Shown here in pieces: positions 25,278-38,614 of a stretch of 64,000 nt of DNA (within the stretch, counting starts at the first letter, position 1; every line of letters starts with the position of its first letter). The DNA lies in contig NC_018025.1 in assembly GCF_000266945.1 (NCBI RefSeq), positions 1,674,001-1,738,000 of the forward strand, written 5' to 3'. The notes under the pieces are model-generated. The model was not told where the DNA came from. It ran no database searches and saw only the letters and a list, made by a program, of their open reading frames with translations. A program made the position numbers and the translations under genes. Source of the DNA: Desulfomonile tiedjei DSM 6799 (GTDB lineage: Bacteria; Desulfobacterota; Desulfomonilia; Desulfomonilales; Desulfomonilaceae).

Positions 25278-25799
25278 TCAGCACCGTCTCGCCAAACCTG
25301 CTTTAGCCCCTGCGTCCAGCGCAATGAGGTTCATTGCACGCACCCGTTCGTTGGGGTGAAGGGCAAGTCGGTCCTTTATCTCATCCGATTGGATGGGGAA
25401 TTCTTCGATCATGCTCGCAAACCCCAATAACACGACGTTTTCCAGTTGGACACGTCCGAATTCCCGTGCCAGGCGTGCCGCATCCACGCGAAGCACACCA
25501 TTTTCGCTCGATAGGGGACTATTCTCCACAATGACGCCCTGGGGCTTCAGGTAATGTTTGTTGTTCTCCGTTTCGGTAGCGTCCAGGGAGAGCAGAAAGT
25601 CTGCATGACCATTCCGGATGAGCGGAGAGGAAAATGCTCCGATTCTCAGATGACTGTTGATAGAGCCTCCTCGGACCGCCATCCCGTGGGTTTCCGAAGA
25701 AATCACGTTCAATCCTCTGGCCGATGCTATATCACCGAGGAGCCGAGTCAAGAAAACGATGCCTTGTCCGCCTCTGCCGCAGAGTATCAATTCTGCCAT
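25278..25799 (-). CDS. iorB: Indolepyruvate ferredoxin oxidoreductase, beta subunit
   Basis: 173 residues of the 2-oxoacid:acceptor oxidoreductase gamma-type fold (AELILCGRGGQGIVFLTRLL; ISSETHGMAVRGGSINSHLR). With IorA it oxidises aryl-pyruvates (indolepyruvate, phenylpyruvate) to aryl-acetyl-CoA with reduction of ferredoxin. Its start lies directly behind the iorA stop. Slightly shorter than some family members (about 190) but it carries the conserved motifs. Confidence 0.88.
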   Translation of the reverse strand: MAELILCGRGGQGIVFLTRLLGDIASARGLNVISSETHGMAVRGGSINSHLRIGAFSSPLIRNGHADFLLSLDATETENNKHYLKPQGVIVENSPLSSENGVLRVDAARLAREFGRVQLENVVLLGFASMIEEFPIQSDEIKDRLALHPNERVRAMNLIALDAGAKAGLARRC

Positions 25800-25800
25800 T

Positions 25801-27630
25801 TCATGCTCCTTTGACCTTTACTGCATGGGACGGACACGTATTCACGCAGAATCCGCATCCAGCGCACAAATCCACATCTATGGTCATGCGCTTTTCCGGT
25901 TCTTTGACAAACTTGAAGGCCGGGCACTCCAGATCCTTGATGCAGCTCATACAGAGATCGCATTCCTCCCCAACCTCAAATCGCAGTGACGAGGGCTCTG
26001 CAAGGGAAGACATTACACAGGGGCGTCTCGCTATCACCACAGAAACTCCCCGTGCTTCTTCAAAAGTGTAGTTTCGTGCCTTTTGCAGCGTCTCTCTGAG
26101 CTGCGCGTGATCGTACGGATCCACCACCTCGACAAAATCGACTCCACAGCCGTGAACAAGTCGTTCCAAACTGATAGGCACAGCAGGCGAGCCGTCGGCC
26201 AGCGTAGCTGTGGCGGGGGGCGGTTGACCGCCGGTCATGGCCGTGACTGCGTTGTCCATGATGACCAGCACGAACGAAGCGCGAGTATGGACGGCATTAA
26301 TCAAGGCTGGGACACCTGCGTGGAAGAATGTGGAATCTCCGATCGTGGATACCACTCTGAAAGAGTTTTCCTCCAGCGGGGCTCTGAACAGACCGCCTGC
26401 CATACCGATTGATGCGCCCATGCACAAACAGGTGTCGACTACGCCCATATTGATGCCAAGCGTGTAGCATCCGATGTCTCCAGCGTACACGGATTTATCG
26501 AACACCTCTTTGATCATGTAGAAAGCCGGTCTGTGAGGACATCCCGGGCACAGAGACGGTCGCCTGGGTTTAATTGCAGGACTCAATCTGGTTGGCGCTG
26601 GTTTGTCCAACGTCTTGACGAGGATGTCTTCCACTGCTTCAGGAGTCAGCTCACCCTGTGGAGGGACATCGCCCGACATTCTCCCCGTAACTTTCGTCCG
26701 ATTCCGAATCTGGAGTTCCAGCACGGGATACGTTTCTTCAATGACAAGAGTTTTGGCATGACTGTCTACGATGTCCTGGAGAGCTTCCGTATTGGCAGGG
26801 AACGGCATATCGACTTTGTACACTGCAATATCACCGTATTCAGGATCGGACGCCACGATGTCGCGCACATGGGAAGAAACCGAGCCTGAAGTAATCAGGG
26901 CTATGGAAGCGGAAGCATTGCCCAGAATCAGCGAAGGCACGCTCCCAGGTTCATCCCGCACGATTGTCGCGAGTTTTTCGTTTAATTCTCCGTGGAGGAC
27001 CAGTCGATAACGCGGAATCGCAGCCCACCGCGTCCAATTGCGTTTGAACGGCCCGACATCGCCAATAGCCCCGGGCACGTTGAGTGCAACGTTCTGACGA
27101 GCATGGCAGACTCGCAGGCACGGCCGAAGCAATACCGGAACCTGGTACCTTTCGGACAGCTCAAAGGCCTGGATCATCATGGTAAGTGCTTCTGCAGGAG
27201 TTCCCGGATCCAGCACGGGGACTTTGGCGAACCATCCGAAGAAACGGCTGTCCTGTTCGGTCTGACTGGAATGTGGGCCGGGGTCGTCAGCAACAACCAC
27301 GACCAGACCGCCCCGTACCCCGAGATAGGCCGCACTAAGGAACGGGTCGGAAGCAACATTCAATCCGACCATTTTCATCGCGGCCATGGATCGGGCTCCG
27401 GCTAGTGACGATCCGTAAGCGACTTCAAAGGCGATCTTCTCATTTACCGACCATTCCAGGTAGATGGGATGATTCAGCACCTTTTTCCACCGAACCAGGG
27501 ATTCGAGTACCTCAGAAGAGGGTGTTCCCGGGTAAGCTGCTGCAACGCTGCATCCCGCCTCGATAGCTCCGCGGGCGATTGCTTCGTTGCCCATGAGGAA
27601 CCTGACTTCAGAATTCTGCTTTTCTGTCAT
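25801..27630 (-). CDS. iorA: Indolepyruvate ferredoxin oxidoreductase, alpha subunit
   Basis: 609 residues. The N-terminal pyrimidine-binding domain (MGNEAIARGAIEAGCSVAAA, AYPGTPSSEVLESL) is followed by the middle domain and the TPP-binding part (CPGCPHRPAFYMI, GDIGCYTLGINMG, GDSTFFHAGVPALINAV). The C-terminal ferredoxin domain has two cysteine clusters (CDLCMSCIKDLEC and CAGCGFCVNTCPS) for [4Fe-4S] groups. It works with IorB. The ADP-forming acyl-CoA synthetase at 11.1-13.2 kb would complete substrate-level ATP formation from aromatic amino acids. It starts 81 bases after the HEAT gene on the same strand and may belong to that transcript. Confidence 0.92.
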   Translation of the reverse strand: MTEKQNSEVRFLMGNEAIARGAIEAGCSVAAAYPGTPSSEVLESLVRWKKVLNHPIYLEWSVNEKIAFEVAYGSSLAGARSMAAMKMVGLNVASDPFLSAAYLGVRGGLVVVVADDPGPHSSQTEQDSRFFGWFAKVPVLDPGTPAEALTMMIQAFELSERYQVPVLLRPCLRVCHARQNVALNVPGAIGDVGPFKRNWTRWAAIPRYRLVLHGELNEKLATIVRDEPGSVPSLILGNASASIALITSGSVSSHVRDIVASDPEYGDIAVYKVDMPFPANTEALQDIVDSHAKTLVIEETYPVLELQIRNRTKVTGRMSGDVPPQGELTPEAVEDILVKTLDKPAPTRLSPAIKPRRPSLCPGCPHRPAFYMIKEVFDKSVYAGDIGCYTLGINMGVVDTCLCMGASIGMAGGLFRAPLEENSFRVVSTIGDSTFFHAGVPALINAVHTRASFVLVIMDNAVTAMTGGQPPPATATLADGSPAVPISLERLVHGCGVDFVEVVDPYDHAQLRETLQKARNYTFEEARGVSVVIARRPCVMSSLAEPSSLRFEVGEECDLCMSCIKDLECPAFKFVKEPEKRMTIDVDLCAGCGFCVNTCPSHAVKVKGA

Positions 27631-27711: not shown

Positions 27712-28992
27712 TCAATGGGTACTTTGAGAAGTATTCCTTCGCATTACGTTCAGTGCCGATAAGATTTCTCTTTTGGCTTGCTGATTGGTTTCTTTGTCAA
27801 GAGCACTCTGAAGAGCAGCAAAAGCCTTTTCCCGGTCGAGAATGCTTATTCTGGCCAGAGCCGTGGCTGCCGCGGCACGGACTCTAAAGTCAGCATCATT
27901 CAAAGATTTTTCAATAGCATCCACTCCGGAGGGAGGAACCTTCTTGAATGAGCTGATGGCGCTTATGGCCGCACTGCGAACGCGTAAGTCGGGATCTGCG
28001 CAAAGAGGAACCAACTGCGGGACAACTTTGTCCGGCTCTTGACCGAGTCCTCGAACAATCCCCACAGCGAGCATCCGGTTTTTCGTCTCCGGATCGTTCA
28101 GGGCCCCGAGCAGTCCATCTATGAACAGATCTGCACGGGATTTGTACCGCATAAGCATTGTCAATGCATCTTCTCGATCCAGTGGGTCGGGCTCTTTCAA
28201 GGCTTTCATCAAAACAGGAATGGCATAGTCTCCGGTCGTATCGATAGCGCTCAGTGTGTCAACAATTTCTATTTTCTCAGGCTGCTTTGCTCCATCGTAC
28301 AGAGCGGCAACCTTCTGAACGGCAGGAGCAGCATGATTTTTCATGTGCGTCAGAATCCGAAGCGAGTTGATAATTCCCGGATTTTCCTTTTTGTCGAGCA
28401 ACTCAATGAGTCCAGGCAGTACATTATCGGGCTTTTCCACTGCAACTTTGGTCAGAGCGATTCCTGCAGCCTTTGCAGTCGCTTCTTGTTTATTGTTGAT
28501 GGCTTCCAGGAGAATAGGAATGGAAGACTCGTCCATATGTCCCAGCGTGGCCAATGCCACGAGGGCGTTCAGCTTGATAAGTGGATCGGGATCGGAGGAT
28601 ATGTGCTTGAGAGCATCTTCAACTTTTGGACGACCCTTTCCCAATCGACCTAGAGAGAGAACGGCGAGACGGCGTACCTCAATGCTCTCGTCTGAGAGAC
28701 GTTCCATGAGAGGATCGAGAGCAGATGCCCCATCGCGGGAAAAATTGCCGAGGGATTCTGCAGCCATTGCTCTGACTTTAGGCTCAGGGTCTTTCAGGGC
28801 TTCAATGAGAGGCGGAACCGCCCTCGCAGGACGGTTTCACCCACAACCCAGTTCATGGGCCGCTTTGGCTCTTACCGCAGAGTCGTTACTCTTCAGTTCT
28901 TGAATGAACCTGTCAATCGAAGCGTCCGATGCGGCAAAGACTGTTCCGACTGAGAACAACAGCAAGATGGCACAAAGGAGCATACGTTTCAT
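27712..28992 (-). CDS. Secreted HEAT-repeat protein with in-frame TGA, candidate selenoprotein
   Basis: Read from the ATG at 28992 the frame gives a signal peptide (MKRMLLCAILLLFSVGTVFA), the start of a HEAT repeat ending ELGCG, then a TGA at 28837-28839, and continues without any shift as NRPARAVPPLIEALKDPEPK and about ten more HEAT repeats to 27712 (426 codons plus stop). The repeat register is kept across the TGA, giving a Cys-Gly-Sec motif. The RNA just after the UGA can fold as GAGG(G)CG-GUUC-CGCCUC, with the loop starting GU 18 bases from UGA, within the known range for bacterial SECIS elements. The alternative is a nonsense mutation, with only an internal start at 28767 (351 residues, no signal peptide) used. 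It is four bases downstream of the YkgJ-type gene. Confidence 0.65.
28797..28836 (-). promoter_or_regulatory. Candidate bacterial SECIS hairpin
   Basis: On the minus strand, immediately 3' of the TGA, GAGGGCG and CGCCUC can pair (six pairs, one bulged G) around a GUUC loop. A competing stem AACCGUCC-UGCGA-GGGCGGUU starts right after the UGA. Loop composition and distance suit SelB recognition; the fold was judged by eye. Confidence 0.5.
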
Positions 28993-28996
28993 TTTC

Positions 28997-29785
28997 TTAC
29001 CCTTGGGATCCAAGGACTTCTCGTTTCTTCTTTTCCAGGTATTCCTTATCGATTTTGAGAAATCCTTTTTGTCCGAACAGTACGAATCTCAACCATTGCA
29101 TCCCGAAGTACAGGAGCGACAAGTCGTCTTCGCGGATCTTCTCCAGAATATCATCGTCAATTTTGAATTTTTGTAGAAAGCTGCTCTTGAAAATAAATTC
29201 CCTGAATCTGTCCAGATCGTAAAGGGCCATCAAGAACATGTCCTGCATTCTTGGGTCAGCGATTGGTTCTTCCCAGACCTGGTCTGCGGCCATTATATCT
29301 TTCAGATTATGGTCCGGATCGTCATAATAGCGTAAGTCCTGTTCTTTTCTCCATCTTTCAACGGTCCATGTTTCCGATTCCGCCAGACCATGGCAGGTTT
29401 CCGGCTTGGCGATGAATTTGTACTCCACTCCGTTTGCCGTGTCCAGAGGGAACAGACGGCAGGAATAAGGCCGATCCTGGTATATAGAACAGCCTTCTTC
29501 GGTAACAAACGGACAGGTCTTTCCTTCATTCTCGTTCATCCTGAGAACCACTGCAGGCAAACCAGTATTATGGGAAATCAAGCGATGGGTATGGCGTTCG
29601 AGAAATTCCTCGGACGTTATTCCGAGGGCCTTCCTCATGCGCATAACATCTATTGGAGTCAGGAAAATCGTTACATTCCCGCAGCATTTGTTGAAACAGT
29701 CGACACCGGGGTAACATTTGAAGCAGAACGAATCGTCCCATGTCATAAGTCGATCCTGACTGCTCGTCTGATCCTTTAATTTCAT
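28997..29785 (-). CDS. YkgJ-family cysteine-cluster protein
   Basis: 262 residues. The N-terminal CFKCYPGVDCFNKCC and the later CPFVTEEGCSIYQDRPYSC match the zinc/iron chelatase-like YkgJ domain (PF03692), with CxxC-type ligands for a metal or Fe-S cluster. The C-terminal half is helical and uncharacterised. The family is widespread in deltaproteobacteria; its reaction is not established. It probably shares a transcript with the HEAT candidate selenoprotein four bases downstream and the TPR protein upstream. Confidence 0.82.
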   Translation of the reverse strand: MKLKDQTSSQDRLMTWDDSFCFKCYPGVDCFNKCCGNVTIFLTPIDVMRMRKALGITSEEFLERHTHRLISHNTGLPAVVLRMNENEGKTCPFVTEEGCSIYQDRPYSCRLFPLDTANGVEYKFIAKPETCHGLAESETWTVERWRKEQDLRYYDDPDHNLKDIMAADQVWEEPIADPRMQDMFLMALYDLDRFREFIFKSSFLQKFKIDDDILEKIREDDLSLLYFGMQWLRFVLFGQKGFLKIDKEYLEKKKREVLGSQG

Positions 29786-29857: not shown

Positions 29858-30832
29858 TTATTGGGCTTCTGTTCCTGCATCCTCGGACGATCCGACTCGT
29901 TTTATATTATCGAGGGCTTGTTTGTTTTCCGGATCGAGCTCGAGAGTCTTTTTCCAGCATTCCATTGCCTTTTGGGTGTCTCCCATAAGTTCAAACACGA
30001 TACCCTTCTGGTGATGAGCACTTACATAATCCGGCCGAATAGCGGTGGCTCGATCGAAGCAATGGAGCGCTTTTGAAAAGTCTCTCCTTTTAATCATACA
30101 GATTTGACCCATGTTATACCAGGCTTGCACGTACGCAGGATTGATATCCACGGTTTTCTGGAATTGTGCCAGGGCCTCGTCTTCCCTTTTCAAGAACGTG
30201 TAAGCCACACCGAGATTGTAGCTGATAACCGGGTTGTCCGGTTCTATCCTCTGCGCCCGTTCGAGTCTCTGCGCTGCAAAGTCGTACTTGTCAGCCTCCA
30301 TGTCGGAAAATGCCCGCTGAAGCTGGACGTTCACCACAAACGTGTGTTTTTCCCGGGTTCCTGCCTGAATTTCTTCGAGGGCCCGAAGTATTTGCGTCAG
30401 GTGCTGTTTCCGTTGCAGGTCTTGAGTCATCTCGAGGCACTGTCGAAAAGCCTCGGCTCCCTTTTCGGGCCGTTCCCCGCACGCGCGGGATATTCCCAGC
30501 ATATAATGAAGATCGAAGAACCGGGATTCCGGAGCCACAGCGAGGGCCTTTTCATAATATTCTGCGGCCAGGAGATATTCTTCCAGCCCATCGTAACAGG
30601 AAGCTATAGCTTCCAGCAGGACATGGGGATCTCGAGCACTATCCAATATCGAGTTGAACAAATCGATAGCCTGATTCCAGTTCTCCAGGGACATTTCTTT
30701 GAATGCTGTCGACCGAATCTGTTCGGCGCTGTCCGCCTCCTGATGAGGAGAGTTTTCTCTTGCGAGACAACATTTTTTGTATTTTAATCCACTGCCGCAG
30801 GGGCAGGGATCATTTCTTCCCAAAAGGGCCAT
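29858..30832 (-). CDS. SEC-C motif and tetratricopeptide-repeat protein
   Basis: 324 residues from the ATG at 30832, chosen because AAGGAG lies six bases upstream. The N-terminus GRNDPCPCGSGLKYKKCC is a SEC-C zinc motif, as at the end of SecA. It is followed by about six TPR units (for example PVISYNLGVAYTFLKREDEA and ALHCFDRATAIRPDYVSAHH). It likely acts as a cytoplasmic protein-interaction scaffold. First gene of a minus-strand series running into ykgJ, HEAT and possibly iorAB. Divergent from aprBA. Confidence 0.85.
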   Translation of the reverse strand: MALLGRNDPCPCGSGLKYKKCCLARENSPHQEADSAEQIRSTAFKEMSLENWNQAIDLFNSILDSARDPHVLLEAIASCYDGLEEYLLAAEYYEKALAVAPESRFFDLHYMLGISRACGERPEKGAEAFRQCLEMTQDLQRKQHLTQILRALEEIQAGTREKHTFVVNVQLQRAFSDMEADKYDFAAQRLERAQRIEPDNPVISYNLGVAYTFLKREDEALAQFQKTVDINPAYVQAWYNMGQICMIKRRDFSKALHCFDRATAIRPDYVSAHHQKGIVFELMGDTQKAMECWKKTLELDPENKQALDNIKRVGSSEDAGTEAQ

Positions 30833-31365
30833 GAGGAACTCCTTGGAATTGCTAAGGGCACAATCTTTGAATTTACCATAGGCGCGAATTTCACACAAGG
30901 ATGTACATGACGAATTTCATGAGAAAATTTCGCAAGTGTATGAAGAAAAAGGTCTTGACATCTTCGGCAGGATTTGATTGAATTTGACATTCCCATACGT
31001 GTTTCGGCACGGGCTTCGGACGTTAGCGGGACGGCCGGAGAGAGTCTTAATATTACTGCAAATCATTAATAATCGCGAATGGTTTTGAATAGTGACGTTT
31101 TCTTGGAAGGTGAATTCGAGGTGCGACTCTTTTTTACTAGGGCCGCAAACCGCGGAAAAGACGTTTTGACGGTGGAGGCAAAACGTGACGGTTCCGTCCA
31201 GGTACGAGTCTTAACAGACTCGCAGCCTGAAGGGTCACGCGTTTATCTCTGTGACCAGGAGAGAAAGGAGGAGGCTTCACAACACCGTAGCGCCTAGCGG
31301 CGCAGTGTGACATGGAGTTTATAAAGACTCACAAACAAAGCTCAAACTCATCAGGAGGTTGGTTC
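30833..31365. other. Divergent intergenic region upstream of aprBA
   Basis: 533 bases between the SEC-C/TPR gene and aprB. It must hold the apr promoter and probably that of the divergent operon. Visible items are a candidate -35/-10 at 30955-30983, an AT-rich stretch near 31047-31076, and AGGAGG before aprB. No convincing gene is seen. Confidence 0.5.
30955..30983 (+). promoter_or_regulatory. Possible apr promoter
   Basis: TTGACA at 30955-30960 (perfect -35) and TTGAAT at 30978-30983 (four of six bases of -10), 17 bases apart. About 380 bases upstream of aprB, so the leader would be long. Suggestive only. Confidence 0.3.
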
Positions 31366-31809
31366 ATGCCAAGTTATGTAATTTTGGAGAAATGTGATGG
31401 ATGCAAGGGTCAGGATAAGACTGCTTGCATGTACATCTGCCCGAATGACTTGATGGTGCTGGATAAGGAAAAAATGAAAGCCTGGAATAGGGCTCCTGAA
31501 ATGTGCTGGGAGTGCTACAACTGCGTGAAAATTTGTCCGCAACAGGCAATTGACGTGAGAGGTTACGCAGACTTCGTGCCTATGGGCGCTTCAGTTGTTC
31601 CTCTACGAGGTTCTGAAGATATCATGTGGACGGTCAAATTCCGCAGTGGAATGATCAAACGGTTCAAGTTCCCCATCCGGACCACTCCTGAAGGATCGGC
31701 AAAACCCGATGGCGGTTTCGGTGAGGTCACTCCTGATCTGGCCAGCCAATGTTTGTACAATGAGCCGACAGCACTCAAGCTGGATGCGTTGCCCACGGTG
31801 AAGAAGTAA
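31366..31809 (+). CDS. aprB: Adenylylsulfate reductase, beta subunit
   Basis: 147 residues from the ATG at 31366, which has AGGAGG seven bases upstream. Two [4Fe-4S] clusters are coordinated by CDGCKGQDKTACMYICP and CWECYNCVKICPQQ. The C-terminal extension (residues about 95-147) wraps around AprA in known structures. AprB passes electrons to the FAD of AprA for the reduction of adenylylsulfate to sulfite and AMP in the cytoplasm. aprA follows after 20 bases. Confidence 0.96.
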   Translation: MPSYVILEKCDGCKGQDKTACMYICPNDLMVLDKEKMKAWNRAPEMCWECYNCVKICPQQAIDVRGYADFVPMGASVVPLRGSEDIMWTVKFRSGMIKRFKFPIRTTPEGSAKPDGGFGEVTPDLASQCLYNEPTALKLDALPTVKK

Positions 31810-31829: not shown

Positions 31830-33707
31830 ATGGCGAATTTTGAAACTATCGAAGTTACCACTGATATCCTTTTGTGCGGCGGCGGCATGGCTGCATGCGG
31901 CGCGGCAGTCGAAGCCTCCTACTGGGCAAACAAGAATGGCCTGAAGGTCACCTTGGTTGACAAAGCCGCTATGGACCGCTCCGGCGCAGTTGCAATGGGC
32001 CTTTCGGCCATCAACCAGTATGTGGATATCAATAGCGGAAACAACACCTGTGAAGACTATGTTCGCTACGTGCGCACCGACCTTATGGGTGTTGCCCGCG
32101 ACGACCTGGTTTATGACATAGCCCGTCACGTCGATTCCTCAGTCCATCTGTTCGAAAAATGGGGTCTGCCGATCTGGTTGGATGCAGATGGCAAGTATGT
32201 CCACGAAGGTCGTTGGCAGCTCATGATCAACGGCGAATCCTACAAAGTTATCGTTGCCGAAGCGGCGAAGAACGCTCTCGCACAGAACGGTGGCGAGTAC
32301 TTCGAGCGCGTATTCATTACCTATCCTCTGTTGGATGGCGACCGCATCGCAGGTGCAGTTGGATTCAGCACTCGTGAAGAGAAATTCTATGTATTCAAGG
32401 CCAAAGCCGTGTTGGCAGCCATGGGCGGCGCGGTTCACGTGTTCAAGCCCAGAAGCGCAGGCGAAGGCCTCGGCCGTGCATGGTATCCCCCCTGGAACTC
32501 CGGCTCCAGCCTGTATTTCACACTGATGGCCGGCGCAGAGCAGACCTGTCAGGAAGTCCGTTTCATCCCCGTCCGTTTCAAGGACGCGTACGGACCGGTC
32601 GGCGCATGGTTCCTCCTGTTCAAATCCCGTGCAACCAACGCAATGGGCGGCGAGTACATGGTGGAGCGCAAACCGGAACTCGAGAACTGGGCACCCTACG
32701 GCCTGGCCAAACCCATCCCCGCCAACCTGCGTAACTACTTGGGCATGCTGGATGAGTTCGAAGGCAAAGGCCCCATCTACATGAGAACTGAAGAAGCCAT
32801 CCAAAAGATAGCCAATCAGTATGCTGACGATCCCAAGGCCTTCAAGAAGAAGATGAAAGAGCTTGAAGCCGAAGCATGGGAAGACTTCCTCGACATGACG
32901 ATTTCCCAGGCCATTCTCTGGGCCGGAACGAACGTTCAGCCCGAAGAGAAATCCTCTGAAATCGCAGCCGCCGAGCCTTATTTCATCGGCTCCCACTCCG
33001 GCGCATCCGGTGCATGGGTCAGCGGTCCGAAAGATCTTGCCCCGGCAGATTATTTCTGGGGTTATGAATATATGTCAACCGTGAAGGGCCTGTTCTGCGC
33101 AGGTGACGCTTCCGGCGCTTCCAGCCACAAGTTCTCCTCCGGCTCCCATGCTGAAGGCCGTGCGGCTGGCAAGTCCATGGTGCGTTTCGTGATGGACAAC
33201 AACACCCTTCCGAACGTTGACGCCGCTCAGGTTGCCGATCTGAAAGCAAAGACCCTGAAACCGATCGATCTCTTCACCGAATTCGGTGGAAAGTCCAGCG
33301 ATCCCGATATCAACCCCGAGTTCATGAAACCGAAAATGTTCATGTTCCGTCTGCAGAAAATCATGGATGAGTACGCAGCAGGCGTGACCGCCGGTTTCAA
33401 GACCAACGAAGCCAAGTTGAACAGAGCCCTCGAACTCCTCGGCTGGCTCAAGGAAGACTCCGAGAAACTGGCTGCCCAGGATCTGCACGAACTCATGAGA
33501 TGCCATGAGAACATTCAGAGAATGTGGCAGGCTGAGACTCACGTGAGAACCATCCTGTTCCGCCAGGAGACCAGATGGCCTGGTTACTATTTCAGAAGCG
33601 ACTATCCCACGATGAATGAAGCTGACTGGAAATGCTTCGTGAACTGCTCTTTCAAGGGTGGAAACTGGGAATTCAAAAAGGTTCCTATTCTCACAATAGT
33701 TGACTGA
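31830..33707 (+). CDS. aprA: Adenylylsulfate reductase, alpha subunit
   Basis: 625 residues, fumarate-reductase-like flavoprotein. The FAD-binding strand ILLCGGGMAACGAAVEASYW is near residue 12, MDRSGAVAMGLSAINQ near 50 and CAGDASGASSHKFSSGSHAE near 425, all close to known AprA. It catalyses APS + 2e- to sulfite + AMP in dissimilatory sulfate reduction, with AprB as partner. Codon use is markedly C/G-ending compared with neighbours (many GGC, CTG, ACC), as expected for a very highly expressed gene. A strong terminator follows, separating apr from qmo transcripts. Confidence 0.97.
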   Translation: MANFETIEVTTDILLCGGGMAACGAAVEASYWANKNGLKVTLVDKAAMDRSGAVAMGLSAINQYVDINSGNNTCEDYVRYVRTDLMGVARDDLVYDIARHVDSSVHLFEKWGLPIWLDADGKYVHEGRWQLMINGESYKVIVAEAAKNALAQNGGEYFERVFITYPLLDGDRIAGAVGFSTREEKFYVFKAKAVLAAMGGAVHVFKPRSAGEGLGRAWYPPWNSGSSLYFTLMAGAEQTCQEVRFIPVRFKDAYGPVGAWFLLFKSRATNAMGGEYMVERKPELENWAPYGLAKPIPANLRNYLGMLDEFEGKGPIYMRTEEAIQKIANQYADDPKAFKKKMKELEAEAWEDFLDMTISQAILWAGTNVQPEEKSSEIAAAEPYFIGSHSGASGAWVSGPKDLAPADYFWGYEYMSTVKGLFCAGDASGASSHKFSSGSHAEGRAAGKSMVRFVMDNNTLPNVDAAQVADLKAKTLKPIDLFTEFGGKSSDPDINPEFMKPKMFMFRLQKIMDEYAAGVTAGFKTNEAKLNRALELLGWLKEDSEKLAAQDLHELMRCHENIQRMWQAETHVRTILFRQETRWPGYYFRSDYPTMNEADWKCFVNCSFKGGNWEFKKVPILTIVD

Positions 33708-33727: not shown

Positions 33728-33763
33728 AACTCCGGGCCCACCATTGTGTGAGCCCGGAGTTTC
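33728..33763 (+). terminator. Terminator after aprBA
   Basis: AACTCCGGGC-14 base loop-GCCCGGAGTTT is a perfect 10-bp stem 20 bases after the aprA stop, followed by TTCATT. It should limit read-through into qmoABC. Confidence 0.8.
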
Positions 33764-33840
33764 ATTACCACAATTCGAAAGAAAACCTCGTGAGGGGACT
33801 GTTTTTCCGGTCCCCTCATAGCCCTTTTCAGGGAGGAAAC

Positions 33841-35106
33841 ATGGCTGGAGACAAGACCGTACTGGTCGTTGGAGGCGGAATTAGCGGAATTACGGCGGCA
33901 GTGGAGGCAGCCGAGGTTGGTTGCAAAGTCATTCTTGTGGAGAAGCTGCCTTACCTGGGGGGCAGAGTTGCCCAGTTGAACAAGTACTTTCCGAAGCTGT
34001 GTCCTCCCACGTGCGGCCTGGAGATCAATTATAAAAGAATACGGCGTAACCCGGATATTACGGTATACACCCGTGCCGAGGTCGTAAATATTTCCGGCAC
34101 AGCAGGAAATTATAAGGCCACTATCAAAGTAACTCCACGATACGTGGAAGATCACACCGCAACCTCGAAATGCGTTGAAGACTGTCCTGTAGAGATCACG
34201 AACGAGTTCAATTACGGAATGGACAAGACAAAAGCGGTGTCCCTTCCGTATGAAATGGCATACCCTATGAACCTGGTGGCTGATAGAGATGCACTACTCA
34301 AAGCAAAAGGTCAACCGGGAGTGGCAGAGTTCATGGAAGCCTGTAATGCAAAGGGTATCCGCTTCAATCTCGATGCAGCACCTGAAACATTCGATCTGGA
34401 TGTCAGCTCCGTTGTGTGGGCAACCGGCTGGCGACCTTACGACGCCAAGAAGCTGACAAAACTCGGTTTCGGAACCTGCGCCAACGTCATCACTAATGTG
34501 ATGATGGAGAGGCTCGCAGCTCCGTCAGGACCTACAAAGGGTGAAATCCTCAGACCTTCAGACGGAAAGAAAGTAAATAGCATCGCCTTCGTGCAGTGTG
34601 CAGGATCGCGAGATCGTAATCATCTGCCTTACTGCTCGTCAATATGCTGTCTGGCATCACTGAAACAGGCAACTTACCTGCGTGATTATAATCCTGAAGC
34701 GCAGGCTCATATATTCTACATCGACCTGAGGGCGTATGGACGGTTCGAGTTTTTCTTCGATAGAGTGAGAAACGACGACAAGATTCTTCTGACAAAGGGA
34801 AAAATCGTTTCCATTACTGAAGACCCCGTTACCAAAAACGTAATCCTGGAAGGAGAAGACATCCTCTCCGGCCAGAAGATTCGCCGTACCTTTGATATGG
34901 CTGTCCTCGCCACTGGCATGCAACCGAACACCAGCCTGGAAAAGATTCCGGCTCAAAATGTGAAGTACGATGAATTCGGTTTTGTCATATCGGATGAAGG
35001 CATACACGCAACAGGCGTATCCAAGAGGCCCATGGACGTGGGCACGTGTCTTCAGGATGCAACCGGTGCCGCTCTCAAAGCACTTCAAGACACGGTGGGG
35101 AGGTAA
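33841..35106 (+). CDS. qmoA: Quinone-interacting membrane-bound oxidoreductase subunit QmoA
   Basis: 421 residues from the ATG at 33841 preceded by GGGAGGAAAC. HdrA-like flavoprotein: VLVVGGGISGITAAVEAAE at the N-terminus, LPYLGGRVAQLN, and Cys-containing segments CPPTCGLEINY and CSSICCLASLKQA. QmoA binds FAD and, with QmoB and QmoC, moves electrons from menaquinol to AprBA. It lacks the extra ferredoxin domains of full HdrA, as is usual for QmoA. First gene of qmoABC, 133 bases after aprA. Confidence 0.95.
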   Translation: MAGDKTVLVVGGGISGITAAVEAAEVGCKVILVEKLPYLGGRVAQLNKYFPKLCPPTCGLEINYKRIRRNPDITVYTRAEVVNISGTAGNYKATIKVTPRYVEDHTATSKCVEDCPVEITNEFNYGMDKTKAVSLPYEMAYPMNLVADRDALLKAKGQPGVAEFMEACNAKGIRFNLDAAPETFDLDVSSVVWATGWRPYDAKKLTKLGFGTCANVITNVMMERLAAPSGPTKGEILRPSDGKKVNSIAFVQCAGSRDRNHLPYCSSICCLASLKQATYLRDYNPEAQAHIFYIDLRAYGRFEFFFDRVRNDDKILLTKGKIVSITEDPVTKNVILEGEDILSGQKIRRTFDMAVLATGMQPNTSLEKIPAQNVKYDEFGFVISDEGIHATGVSKRPMDVGTCLQDATGAALKALQDTVGR

Positions 35107-35112
35107 GAATCC

Positions 35113-37401
35113 ATGGACCTCAAAATCGGAGTTTACATTGATACAGGTTACGGAATAGGCGAAGCCCTCGACATCGAATCTCTTTCCAAAGTCGCAACGA
35201 AAGAGATGAAAGTGCCTATCTGCAGAGCTGAAGCTTACTGGAGCGATCCGGACAAGCTGGAGATCATCAAGAACGACATAGCGAACGAGGGCGTAAATGC
35301 GATCATCGTAGCAGGTGCCTCGCCTCGTGTTTTTCAGGAAGCGTTCAGGTTCGAAGGAGTCATTACCGAACGCATCAATCTTCGGGAGCAGGTTATCTGG
35401 TCACACCCAGCCAATGATGAAGATACCCAGATGCTTGCGGAAGACTACATGCGCATGGGTGTCACCAAGCTGAACAAATACGAAGACCGTGCTCCTTTCG
35501 ACGAAGCAAACGAGAAATCGATCCTCGTAATCGGCGGCGGCATCACCGGAATGACCGCAGCTCTCGAAGCAGCTCGTGCCGGAACACAGGTGTATTTGGT
35601 GGAAAAAGAGCCTCAACTGGGTGGATGGGCCACCAAGTATCATAAAGTGTTCACCGGTCAAGCGCCGTACGACTCCATCGTGGATTCTCCCGTGCAGGAC
35701 AAGATCGCTGCAGTCAAAGCCAACAGCAATATCAAAGTGTTCACCGGGCATCGCGTGTACAGCATTGCTGGCTCGCCCGGAATGTTTGACGTGACGATCA
35801 GAGAGGACGGTCCCTGGATCGATCGTCTTGTCAGAGAACAGAACGAATGGCTCGCGGCTAAGAAAGCGAAGGAGGCAATCGGCCAGGAAGAGGAGCAGAA
35901 GCCTAAAGCTGCTGCCGCCGCGGAGACTCCGGCGGAAGAAGAAGCACCGGAACCCACGGATTTCCCTCATGAAAAAATCCAAGTTGGTGCAGTGGTTCTC
36001 GCGGCAGGCTGGAGACCCGAAGATGCTTCCGCATTCGCGGAACTGGGATATGGTGAGTATCCGGACGTTATCACCAGCGTGGAACTCGAAGAGCTTGCCA
36101 AGAATGGTAAGATCAAACGGCCTTCCGACGGCAAAGAGGTCAACACTATCGCCTTTATCGATACGCCCAATCAGAAGGCGGATCATCCTCTCCTGTTCAG
36201 CTCCTCGGTAGCGTCATTGGTCGCTCTGAAGCAAGCGCATTACCTGCGTCAGACCAATCCGGAAAGCCGAGCGTACATTTTCTATGAAAATATGCGGACA
36301 CCCGGGCAGTACGAGAAATTCTATCAGGCAATGCAGGACGACCCCGGAGTATTTCTGTCAAAGGGAACCCCAGTTGGCGTCTCCAACGGCGGTTCTGCAC
36401 TGACTGTCGAACTCAAGGATACGCTCCTCGGCGAATACATGAAGGTCAAGGTGGATCTCCTCGTTCTCGCCACCGGAATGGTGCCGGTAACGAAGGATTC
36501 CGCCATTGTAAACCTGAAATACCGCCAGGGCCCATTTATGCCCGAGAACGTATACGGTTTTAACGATTCCCACTTCATCTGTTTCCCGTATGAAACGCAG
36601 CGGACCGGCATCTATACTGCAGGATGCGTCAAGAACCCGATGGATTTTCTCACTTGTGAGATGGATGCCGCGGGCGCAGCTTTGAAGGCGATCCAATGTG
36701 CGGAGCTAACTGCTCAAGGCAAAGCGGTTTCACCCAGGGCAGGGGACGAGTCCTTTCCTCAGATTTTCCTTCAGCGCTGCACCCAGTGCAAACGATGCAC
36801 AGAAGAATGTCCTTTCGGTGCATACGATGAGAAACCGGACGGCACTCCGTTGCCGAACCCGACTCGTTGCCGCAGATGCGCAATCTGCATGGGCTCCTGC
36901 CCTGAGCGCTTGATCTCGTTCAGAGACCACTCCGTGGACATGATCGGATCCATGGTGAAGATTATCGACGTACCTGATGAGTATTCCGAGAAACCTCGGG
37001 TAGTCGTATTCATCTGTGAGAACGACGCATATCCGGTGGTCGATATGGCTGGTATGAACCGCCTTGAATACAGTCCACACGTCAGGTTCATCCCTCTGAG
37101 GTGCTTGGGCAATATCAACATGGTGTGGATCGCCGATGCCTTGTCCAAAGGCATTGACGGCATCATGCTGATCGGTTGCAAGTATGGTGACGATTACCAG
37201 TGCCACTTCGTAAAGGGAAGCGAACTTGCCGAATACAGAATGAGCAAGATCTCTGAAACGCTCCAGCGGCTCGCCCTGGAACCGGAACGGATTTCCGTGC
37301 ATCAGTTGGCCATAGACGAGTACAACAAACTTCCGAAGATCATTGACGAGTTTATGGAAACGCTGTCAGGCTTCGATCCCAACCCGTATAAAGGTTTCTA
37401 A
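35113..37401 (+). CDS. qmoB: Quinone-interacting membrane-bound oxidoreductase subunit QmoB
   Basis: 762 residues, soluble HdrA/MvhD-like. Residues 1-130 are an extra N-terminal domain. A FAD fold (ILVIGGGITGMTAALEAARA) starts near 138. A low-complexity Lys/Ala/Glu insert sits near 255-280. Two [4Fe-4S] motifs, CTQCKRCTEECPFG and CRRCAICMGSCPE, lie near 557-600. The tail from about 620 (VVVFICENDAYPVVDMAGM) is an MvhD-like domain, the electron-entry module in Hdr complexes. It pairs with QmoA in the cytoplasm. Six bases separate it from qmoA. Confidence 0.95.
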   Translation: MDLKIGVYIDTGYGIGEALDIESLSKVATKEMKVPICRAEAYWSDPDKLEIIKNDIANEGVNAIIVAGASPRVFQEAFRFEGVITERINLREQVIWSHPANDEDTQMLAEDYMRMGVTKLNKYEDRAPFDEANEKSILVIGGGITGMTAALEAARAGTQVYLVEKEPQLGGWATKYHKVFTGQAPYDSIVDSPVQDKIAAVKANSNIKVFTGHRVYSIAGSPGMFDVTIREDGPWIDRLVREQNEWLAAKKAKEAIGQEEEQKPKAAAAAETPAEEEAPEPTDFPHEKIQVGAVVLAAGWRPEDASAFAELGYGEYPDVITSVELEELAKNGKIKRPSDGKEVNTIAFIDTPNQKADHPLLFSSSVASLVALKQAHYLRQTNPESRAYIFYENMRTPGQYEKFYQAMQDDPGVFLSKGTPVGVSNGGSALTVELKDTLLGEYMKVKVDLLVLATGMVPVTKDSAIVNLKYRQGPFMPENVYGFNDSHFICFPYETQRTGIYTAGCVKNPMDFLTCEMDAAGAALKAIQCAELTAQGKAVSPRAGDESFPQIFLQRCTQCKRCTEECPFGAYDEKPDGTPLPNPTRCRRCAICMGSCPERLISFRDHSVDMIGSMVKIIDVPDEYSEKPRVVVFICENDAYPVVDMAGMNRLEYSPHVRFIPLRCLGNINMVWIADALSKGIDGIMLIGCKYGDDYQCHFVKGSELAEYRMSKISETLQRLALEPERISVHQLAIDEYNKLPKIIDEFMETLSGFDPNPYKGF

Positions 37402-37414
37402 GGAGGCTTTACTC

Positions 37415-38614
37415 ATGGCAAATGTGACAGTTGCCGAACCTGATCTCCAGTTTACCAAAGACCTCATAGCCGCCGGCGCGGATGATCTGAAGAAGTGTTA
37501 TCAATGTGCCACGTGCTCGGTGGCATGCAAGATAGCCCCTGACAACGGGCCCTTTCCTCGCAAGGAGATGATTTGGGCCCAATGGGGTTTGAAAGATCGT
37601 CTTCTCAACGACCCTGACGTCTGGCTGTGCCACCAGTGCAACGACTGCTCGACCGAATGTCCCAGAGGTGCCAATCCGGGAGAAGTCCTGAAGGCCGTGC
37701 GCAAAATGAACATCCAGGAGAACTCCTGGCCTTCATTCCTGGGCAACCTGGTAGGCACTCCGGCGATGTTTATATTGGCTGCAGGAATTCCCATTGTTGC
37801 TGTCCTCTTCATCGTGTACGTGAGCGGATGGAGTTTTCCCTCAGGTCCGATACACTATTCGAGCCACAGTATTGACCCTGCAACGAGGGACGGATTCATC
37901 TATCTGCCGCTTCTCCAGGTGATTTTTACTCTCGCTTTGCTGTTCGGTGTGGTCTCGCTCGTGATGAGCTTAAAAAGCTACTGGAACCAGTTGGAATCTG
38001 GTAATCCCATAGGAATAAGAGGACCTGGTAAAGGATTTGTTCCAAGCCTTATCGAGTCGCTCCAGGAGATTCTGCCGCATTCGACATTCAAGGAATGCGA
38101 AGCCAACAATATCCGGTACGCAGCCCATATGCTGGCTTTTTGGGGTATGATCGGACTGTTCGTGACTACCGCTATTGTGGCTTTCAACTATGACATTCTC
38201 GGACTCAAGCCGCCGTCCCAAAACGGGCCGGGAACTGTGCCGATCAAAATCCTGGGTAATGCAAGTGCAATAGCATTTGTCCTGGGACTTGGCATCATGC
38301 TGATTCGCCGTTTGACCAACCCTGAACAGGCTGGAAACAGCTCCTATTTTGACTGGTTCTTCCTGTTCACCATCTTTGGAGCAGGTTCGACAGGTCTTTT
38401 GACTGAATTGTCACGGTGGTTGGGTTTTATTGCGCCCACGTACACGCTGTATGTCATTCACCTGATGTTCGTGTTGGCATTGCTCCTGTACCTGCCGTTT
38501 TCAAAATTTGCCCATCTCGGGTACCGGACTGTTGCCATAGCGTGGTCCAAATCTGTAGGACGGAACAGGACCCTTCCTGTCGTACCGAACTACGTCCCGC
38601 CCGTTTCGGAATAA
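37415..38614 (+). CDS. qmoC: Quinone-interacting membrane-bound oxidoreductase subunit QmoC
   Basis: 399 residues from the ATG at 37415 with AAGGAGG upstream. An HdrC-like N-terminus holds two [4Fe-4S] motifs (CYQCATCSVACKIAP, CHQCNDCSTECPRG). The C-terminal part is an HdrE/NarI-like membrane domain with about six helices (FILAAGIPIVAVLFIVYV, VIFTLALLFGVVSLVMSL, and others) that binds heme b and menaquinol. It anchors QmoAB to the inner face of the membrane. End of the qmoABC operon. Confidence 0.95.
   Translation: MANVTVAEPDLQFTKDLIAAGADDLKKCYQCATCSVACKIAPDNGPFPRKEMIWAQWGLKDRLLNDPDVWLCHQCNDCSTECPRGANPGEVLKAVRKMNIQENSWPSFLGNLVGTPAMFILAAGIPIVAVLFIVYVSGWSFPSGPIHYSSHSIDPATRDGFIYLPLLQVIFTLALLFGVVSLVMSLKSYWNQLESGNPIGIRGPGKGFVPSLIESLQEILPHSTFKECEANNIRYAAHMLAFWGMIGLFVTTAIVAFNYDILGLKPPSQNGPGTVPIKILGNASAIAFVLGLGIMLIRRLTNPEQAGNSSYFDWFFLFTIFGAGSTGLLTELSRWLGFIAPTYTLYVIHLMFVLALLLYLPFSKFAHLGYRTVAIAWSKSVGRNRTLPVVPNYVPPVSE

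Follow-up and report, generated by a model that had tools for sequence, protein, structure and literature searches.

A 2026 review divides prokaryotic selenoproteins into 119 families by its own count (Table 1 of PMC13188914) and includes rhodanese form 3 and an UshA-like protein among the entries with a C-x-U motif. The gene described here, from Desulfomonile tiedjei DSM 6799, has the features expected of these catalogued selenoproteins, namely an in-frame UGA, a SECIS-like hairpin, a Cys homolog, and a genome with the selenocysteine (Sec) machinery; unlike the families of that table, which has no HEAT entry, the window protein is built of HEAT repeats. The word "heat" is absent from the text of PMC13188914, PMC9312934, and PMC12013277 and from the main text of PMC8318568. 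A search of the mostly openly available full-text literature, judged by titles and the openings of abstracts, returned nothing relevant on bacterial HEAT-repeat selenoproteins. Within the scope of the tabulated families and the openly searchable literature, the remark in the original prediction that no characterized HEAT-repeat selenoprotein is known holds, and the locus very probably encodes, as judged from sequence, an exported repeat-scaffold selenoprotein of a kind not found among catalogued selenoproteins. If so, it would place Sec on a repeat scaffold, a fold without an entry in the 119-family review, and would tie selenium use to a conserved neighbor of the sulfate respiration core.

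Among the closest known systems are the HEAT_2 and PBS-lyase HEAT-like proteins (PF13646, PF03130), which the window protein resembles both in its repeat sequence and in its modeled helical solenoid. It differs from CpcE and NblB, scoring far under the cut-offs of their NCBIfam models, and it stays below the cut-off of every other NCBIfam model as well.

An Interrupted HEAT-Repeat Gene

The window, a stretch of 64,000 nucleotides, contains the following features on its minus strand:

27712 to 28992, minus strand: candidate HEAT-repeat selenoprotein gene encoding 426 aa, with Sec predicted at codon 52 and TGA as the terminal stop (PF13646 HEAT_2, 9.7e-47)
28837 to 28839, minus strand: in-frame UGA predicted to be read as selenocysteine (Sec52), in an alignment column with TGA in 18/19 and Cys in 1/19 copies
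28933 to 28992, minus strand: probable signal peptide, approximately residues 1–20, recognized by eye in translations from a hydrophobic core and an AxA-like end
28807 to 28825, minus strand: SECIS-like hairpin, GAGGGCG / loop GUUC (28815–28818) / CGCC-U-CUC, loop 18 nt past the UGA

The frame opens with an ATG at 28992, passes through the internal TGA at codon 52 of 426, and closes with a TGA at 27714–27712. We confirmed that a TGA-interrupted frame encodes a probable signal peptide and a HEAT solenoid. The original prediction had described one continuous minus-strand frame split by a TGA at these positions, a C-G-U sequence encoded by TGT-GGG and the TGA, and a location directly behind a YkgJ gene; all three are borne out, the YkgJ gene (PF03692) ending at 28997, 4 nt ahead of the ATG. 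It had also placed a signal peptide and half of a HEAT repeat ahead of the TGA, with HEAT repeats going on downstream: a probable leader is there and a HEAT solenoid does follow, but on our reading of the repeat register a whole first repeat, not half of one, precedes the TGA. Of the 17 TGA-bearing copies with a visible end, 10 terminate in TAA or TAG at about the same length and 7 in TGA, so the terminal TGA of the window gene is credible.

Conservation of the TGA Column

Among 60 related genomes, the strong matches, all at E 2e-46 or better, comprise 18 with exactly one internal stop, always TGA, and one (L033, on G008:C82) with none. In an alignment of all 19 extracted copies, one of which (L011) is cut by a contig end, the 18 TGA codons share a single column, the 19th copy has Cys there (codon TGC), and the residues on both sides of the column remain conserved. 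The column thus holds TGA or Cys, as the original prediction had asked of homologs, and a conserved UGA with Cys as its alternative (18 TGA and 1 Cys of 19) is the pattern looked for in a selenoprotein. A sequencing error, the alternative raised at the outset, is not credible given 18 TGA genes from 15 genomes, and the persistence of the TGA in the same column leads us to reject pseudogene and error alike. We put the probability that UGA 52 is recoded as selenocysteine at roughly 95%, on the strength of these alignments and of the genome content described below.

The opposing reading takes the UGA for a genuine stop or an error, and the locus for a pseudogene or a pair of short genes; it draws on an ATG 24 codons past the UGA in the window, where the mechanical list of open reading frames begins the downstream half. 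However, the first in-frame start downstream of the UGA differs among copies, lying 4 to 62 codons away, and 18 genes in 15 genomes combine a single TGA in one column, no other internal stop, conservation of the residues to either side, and, as described below, conserved synonymous sites under the hairpin, which makes this reading very improbable. Calling the gene from the internal ATG would drop both its export signal and its key residue.

In the order Desulfomonilales, 17 of 18 genomes match at E 1e-20, and in 15 of them the copy is complete or nearly so. The other three genomes are 81–82% complete: in G003 the match is a C-terminal fragment where the contig ends, in G016 it is confined to 200 residues of HEAT sequence, and G010 has no match. 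Full-length matches occur in 15 of 42 class genomes and 5 of 395 sampled phylum genomes, always within family f1; none was found outside f1 in these two sets at E 1e-30, with at most 4 candidates per genome scored in the phylum scan. When the N-terminal 100 residues served as the query, at least 87 of the 395 genomes matched, 5 of them in f1 and the rest, among the matches listed, through HEAT proteins. Viral contigs gave no match. The first of two contig scans found nothing, and the second found five loci that are the same genes as those of G012, G014, G017, G015, and G005, so no independent copies were added. A weak TGA match on G008:C3 (E 1.3e-4) was set aside and resembles the normal terminus of a HEAT gene.

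HEAT proteins outside the order differ from the family at the Sec column: five of the best-scoring ones (L106–L110) have Gly, Ile, Leu, or a gap there, not Cys. The Sec thus seems to occupy a position special to the HEAT-Sec family.

A SECIS-Like Hairpin

The predicted stem with a GUUC loop 18 bases from the UGA is present in the window as a hairpin of 7 pairs. We compared it with a bacterial SECIS model that combines a loop of 3–9 nt beginning 16–37 nt after the UGA, a G in the first two loop positions, a stem of 4–16 bp, and an MFE ≤ −7.5 (parameters from the Fig. 2 legend of PMC13188914). The model fits 17 of the 18 TGA copies, including the window gene, and in these the UGA and the loop are 17 or 18 nt apart; the exception, L016, misses the energy limit (−3.9). 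This loose model says little alone, as it also admits 228 of 720 control codons drawn from these genes. A tightened form, in which the loop lies 16–19 nt away and starts with G[GU] or NG[GU], separates 17 of 18 real sites from 15 of 720 control codons, a comparison to be read with the fact that the form was set post hoc, after the real hairpins had been seen. When the peptide is recoded with synonymous codons, the natural hairpin region is the more stable one in 14 of 18 copies (p<0.05); L014, L016, L032, L035, and the Cys copy, which was read one codon further 3′, have no such extra stability.

The strongest test of the element is conservation at synonymous sites, which is independent of folding. 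Codon identity at residues 56–62 has a mean z of 10.6 vs 0.56 at 157 other columns (Mann–Whitney p 2e-11), and five of these residues, all under the hairpin, are the five most conserved synonymous sites among 169 columns; kinship of the copies lifts codon identity everywhere, an effect that is partly corrected for by setting these residues against the other columns. The segment is mostly coded GCG-AGG-GCG-GTT-CCG-CCT-CTC, with these codons used, where the residue is kept, in 14/14, 12/15, 12/17, 12/17, 12/12, 14/16, and 15/18 copies, respectively.

Covariation in the stem does not rise above that of shuffled alignments (score 0.073 vs 0.076, with one pair changed on both sides), and a second calculation gave a term of −0.1 with a double change in 2 of 5 pairs. 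The stem register shifts among copies, the predicted 3′ strand being displaced in several (e.g., L032 and L035); the paired fraction of stem cells is 86.5%, and 10 of 500 shuffles get that high, whereas slid registers stay at 46–69%. When the UGA and the following 42 nt of the window gene (45 nt) are folded alone, they prefer a different hairpin that uses nt 1–9 after the UGA. Since nt 1–9 would probably lie inside the ribosome waiting at the UGA, the SECIS-like stem (nt 12–30) could still form. The claim of a SECIS element is thus upheld against recodings and control codons and by synonymous sites but gains nothing from covariation, and the isolated 45 nt do not prefer it. The Cys copy L033 also passes the loose model, which therefore indicates no loss of the element alongside Cys. 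With the synonymous sites and the recodings taken together with the TGA column, we consider it highly probable that the gene encodes a Sec protein served by a SECIS element.

We also considered that the UGA and hairpin might form a selenium-dependent switch that selects either a short product with the signal peptide or the complete protein. The UGA does come early, codon 52 lying a short way past the leader; one copy, however, has Cys and no UGA, and no use for a 51-residue product is evident in this analysis. We regard such a switch as quite improbable.

Selenocysteine Machinery and a Second selB

The original prediction made selA, selB, selC, and selD in the genome a condition for its reading, and all are found, the tRNA-Sec with the anticodon UCA. 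Together with the TGA/Cys column and the SECIS-like hairpin, this supports the reading of the window gene as a candidate selenoprotein. All 18 genomes of the order have a selA match over its cut-off, and 16 have a tRNA-Sec of 68–75 bits; the two genomes without such a tRNA are G014 (83% complete), which nevertheless carries the HEAT gene, and G016 (82% complete). The selD gene of D. tiedjei (L053, G000:C1:3873142-3874065) is itself interrupted by an in-frame TGA, which stands in a UxxK context and may be followed by a hairpin on its 3′ side.

A second way of decoding UGA is by a suppressor tRNA, reportedly as in the selC*/selB* system of Mukai 2017. PMC7609411 describes selC* tRNA-Cys, some with an opal anticodon, and an extra selB in some groups. 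The D. tiedjei genome resembles that system in having a second selB over cut-off beside a tRNA-Sec-shaped tRNA (L046, G000:C1:3562734-3564838; L056, 6735-8875), which lies directly ahead of the second selB-like gene and scores as tRNA-Sec in Rfam. Unlike the opal members of the selC*/selB* system, which are Sec-shaped tRNA-Cys with a UCA anticodon, this tRNA has the anticodon GCA in ARAGORN and should for that reason not read UGA; of the two tRNA-Sec matches over cut-off, only the canonical one reads UCA. Decoding of the HEAT-gene UGA by selC* is rejected on the basis of the GCA anticodon, and, judging from these two tRNA-Sec matches, it is very unlikely that a suppressor tRNA inserts Cys or another amino acid in place of Sec. 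Near the second selB, on the opposite strand, are two genes that resemble, by eye, a CoA activase and a 2-hydroxyacyl-CoA dehydratase.

We therefore retain Sec as the residue inserted: SelB with Sec-tRNA would read UGA 52, helped by the hairpin directly 3′, to yield a single protein of 426 residues.

Fold and Position of Sec52

The window protein matches PF13646 with 157.6 bits against a cut-off of 27.7 and has a Pfam HEAT match at residues 59–85. A structure model, built from a six-sequence alignment with Cys in place of Sec, is all-helical, with 23 helices after the leader helix and a mean pLDDT of 88. Its top Foldseek matches are alphaRep designs, the PP2A A-subunit, and other solenoids, at modest TMq values of 0.26–0.51 among the best 50. 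The HEAT model match and the α-solenoid model together place the protein among HEAT-repeat proteins. A thioredoxin fold with a CxxC or UxxC motif is not supported, as the model is all-helical and the window protein has no such Pfam match. If the repeat register is read from the Pfam match, residue 52 would, on our reading of the model, lie in the turn between HEAT repeats 1 and 2 (helices 38–50 and 56–65). The probable signal peptide suggests that the protein would be exported and fold as a HEAT solenoid outside the cytoplasm.

Paralogs and the Partner Cysteine

The family comprises operon-type copies and four paralogs, three with Sec and one, L033, with Cys. All 15 operon-type copies carry a Cys two residues ahead of the UGA, and none of the three Sec paralogs does, so the "C-G-U redox motif" of the original prediction applies to the former but not to the latter, and Sec rather than C-x-U is the shared feature. 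In the Sec paralogs, the Sec may thus act alone.

The Cys copy groups with a Sec paralog (tree support 98/96), from which we infer that an exchange between Sec and Cys, in one direction or the other, took place within the family. Such a Sec paralog with a Cys-containing sister makes the role of selenium directly testable. The tree does not cleanly separate operon-type and paralog copies, and the paralogs of G000 and G009 (par_G000 and par_G009) form long branches. In L033 (3358-4587 on G008:C82), the hairpin sequence is partly still recognizable by eye.

D. tiedjei itself has a second, divergent HEAT-Sec gene (L035 and L100, G000:C1:3161460-3162728), directly behind a gene of a rhodanese cluster. 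The paralog stretches L097 and L099 share neighbor genes, which in L097 are DGC, MauE/DoxX, and rhodanese genes, and the gene just before the second HEAT-Sec gene of D. tiedjei (L100) belongs to the same rhodanese cluster as in L097. Thioredoxin-domain genes lie close to the copies of L097 and L098, the latter stretch being the one that holds L033. Neither TPR/SEC-C, YkgJ, aprA, nor aprB genes were found in the stretches around the four paralogs.

A Presumed Operon Divergent from Sulfate Respiration Genes

In the window, the HEAT-Sec gene is preceded by two genes on the same strand, and these are followed by divergent genes:

28997 to 29785, minus strand: CxxCxxCC protein of the YkgJ type, encoded ahead of HEAT-Sec in the presumed operon (PF03692; tblastn match at 14/14 related operon-type loci)
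29858 to 30898, minus strand: TPR protein with a SEC-C motif, whose gene opens the presumed operon (PF02810 and TPR families; 14/14 related loci)
31312 to 31809, plus strand: AprB, adenylylsulfate reductase beta, divergent (TIGR02060 over cut-off at 31348-31809; the true start may be internal)
31830 to 33707, plus strand: AprA, adenylylsulfate reductase alpha (TIGR02061 over cut-off)
33748 to 37401, plus strand: two HdrA-like proteins, matches under cut-off, presumed from gene order to be QmoA and QmoB
37343 to 38614, plus strand: QmoC (NF038018 qmoC over cut-off), in a presumed qmo region spanning 33748 to 38614

The HEAT-Sec gene presumably closes a conserved operon (TPR/SEC-C, YkgJ, HEAT-Sec) that is divergent from aprBA and the qmo genes. 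Both aprA and aprB lie beyond the operon at 13 of the 14 related loci, aprA being cut by the stretch or contig at two of these, and the 14th stretch stops at a contig end. Since L087, L089, and L094 gave no YkgJ open reading frame, a Sec codon in YkgJ was suspected; it was rejected, as none of 13 relatives has a stop in the aligned stretch, and the missing frames probably come from the choice of open reading frames and the overlap filter.

Possible Roles of the Selenol

We tentatively assign a redox role to Sec52, a proposal that still falls somewhat short of an even chance. In operon-type copies, the Cys two residues before could form a selenenylsulfide with Sec in the turn between the first two repeats, whereas in the Sec paralogs a resolving thiol might be supplied by a partner, e.g., a thioredoxin-domain protein. 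The extracytoplasmic selenol would react with partners bound to the solenoid, at their thiols, persulfides, or disulfides, and, given the operon divergent from aprBA and qmo, might work in step with sulfate respiration.

That the protein is a selenoprotein whose Sec52 serves instead as a metal or metalloid ligand or a structural residue is rather unlikely, though it has points in its favor: the partner Cys is missing in all three Sec paralogs, the neighboring YkgJ comes from a family of putative zinc or iron chelators, and HEAT proteins are usually scaffolds. The gene settings, however, point to sulfur redox chemistry, and no other Cys or His occupies an invariant or nearly invariant column. 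Returning to the redox reading, we offer as a speculative and, on balance, doubtful synthesis that these proteins form a helical-repeat selenoprotein family, so far found only in Desulfomonilales, whose exported selenol carries out sulfide, persulfide, or thiol chemistry coupled to aprBA/qmo and, in the paralogs, to rhodanese/MauE.

Two observations concern genes near or similar to the family. Behind the HEAT gene in the window (25278-27630) is an indolepyruvate ferredoxin oxidoreductase-like pair, which also occurs in G001 but in none of the other 13 stretches; its iorA-like gene (25801-27630) was left out of the unit because it is found at 1 of the 14 related loci, several stretches ending near there. 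An exported-looking HEAT gene in another genome (L111, G124:C58:10793-11035) has one in-frame TGA elsewhere in the protein, inside a helix, which could be an error, the mark of a pseudogene, or another Sec site.
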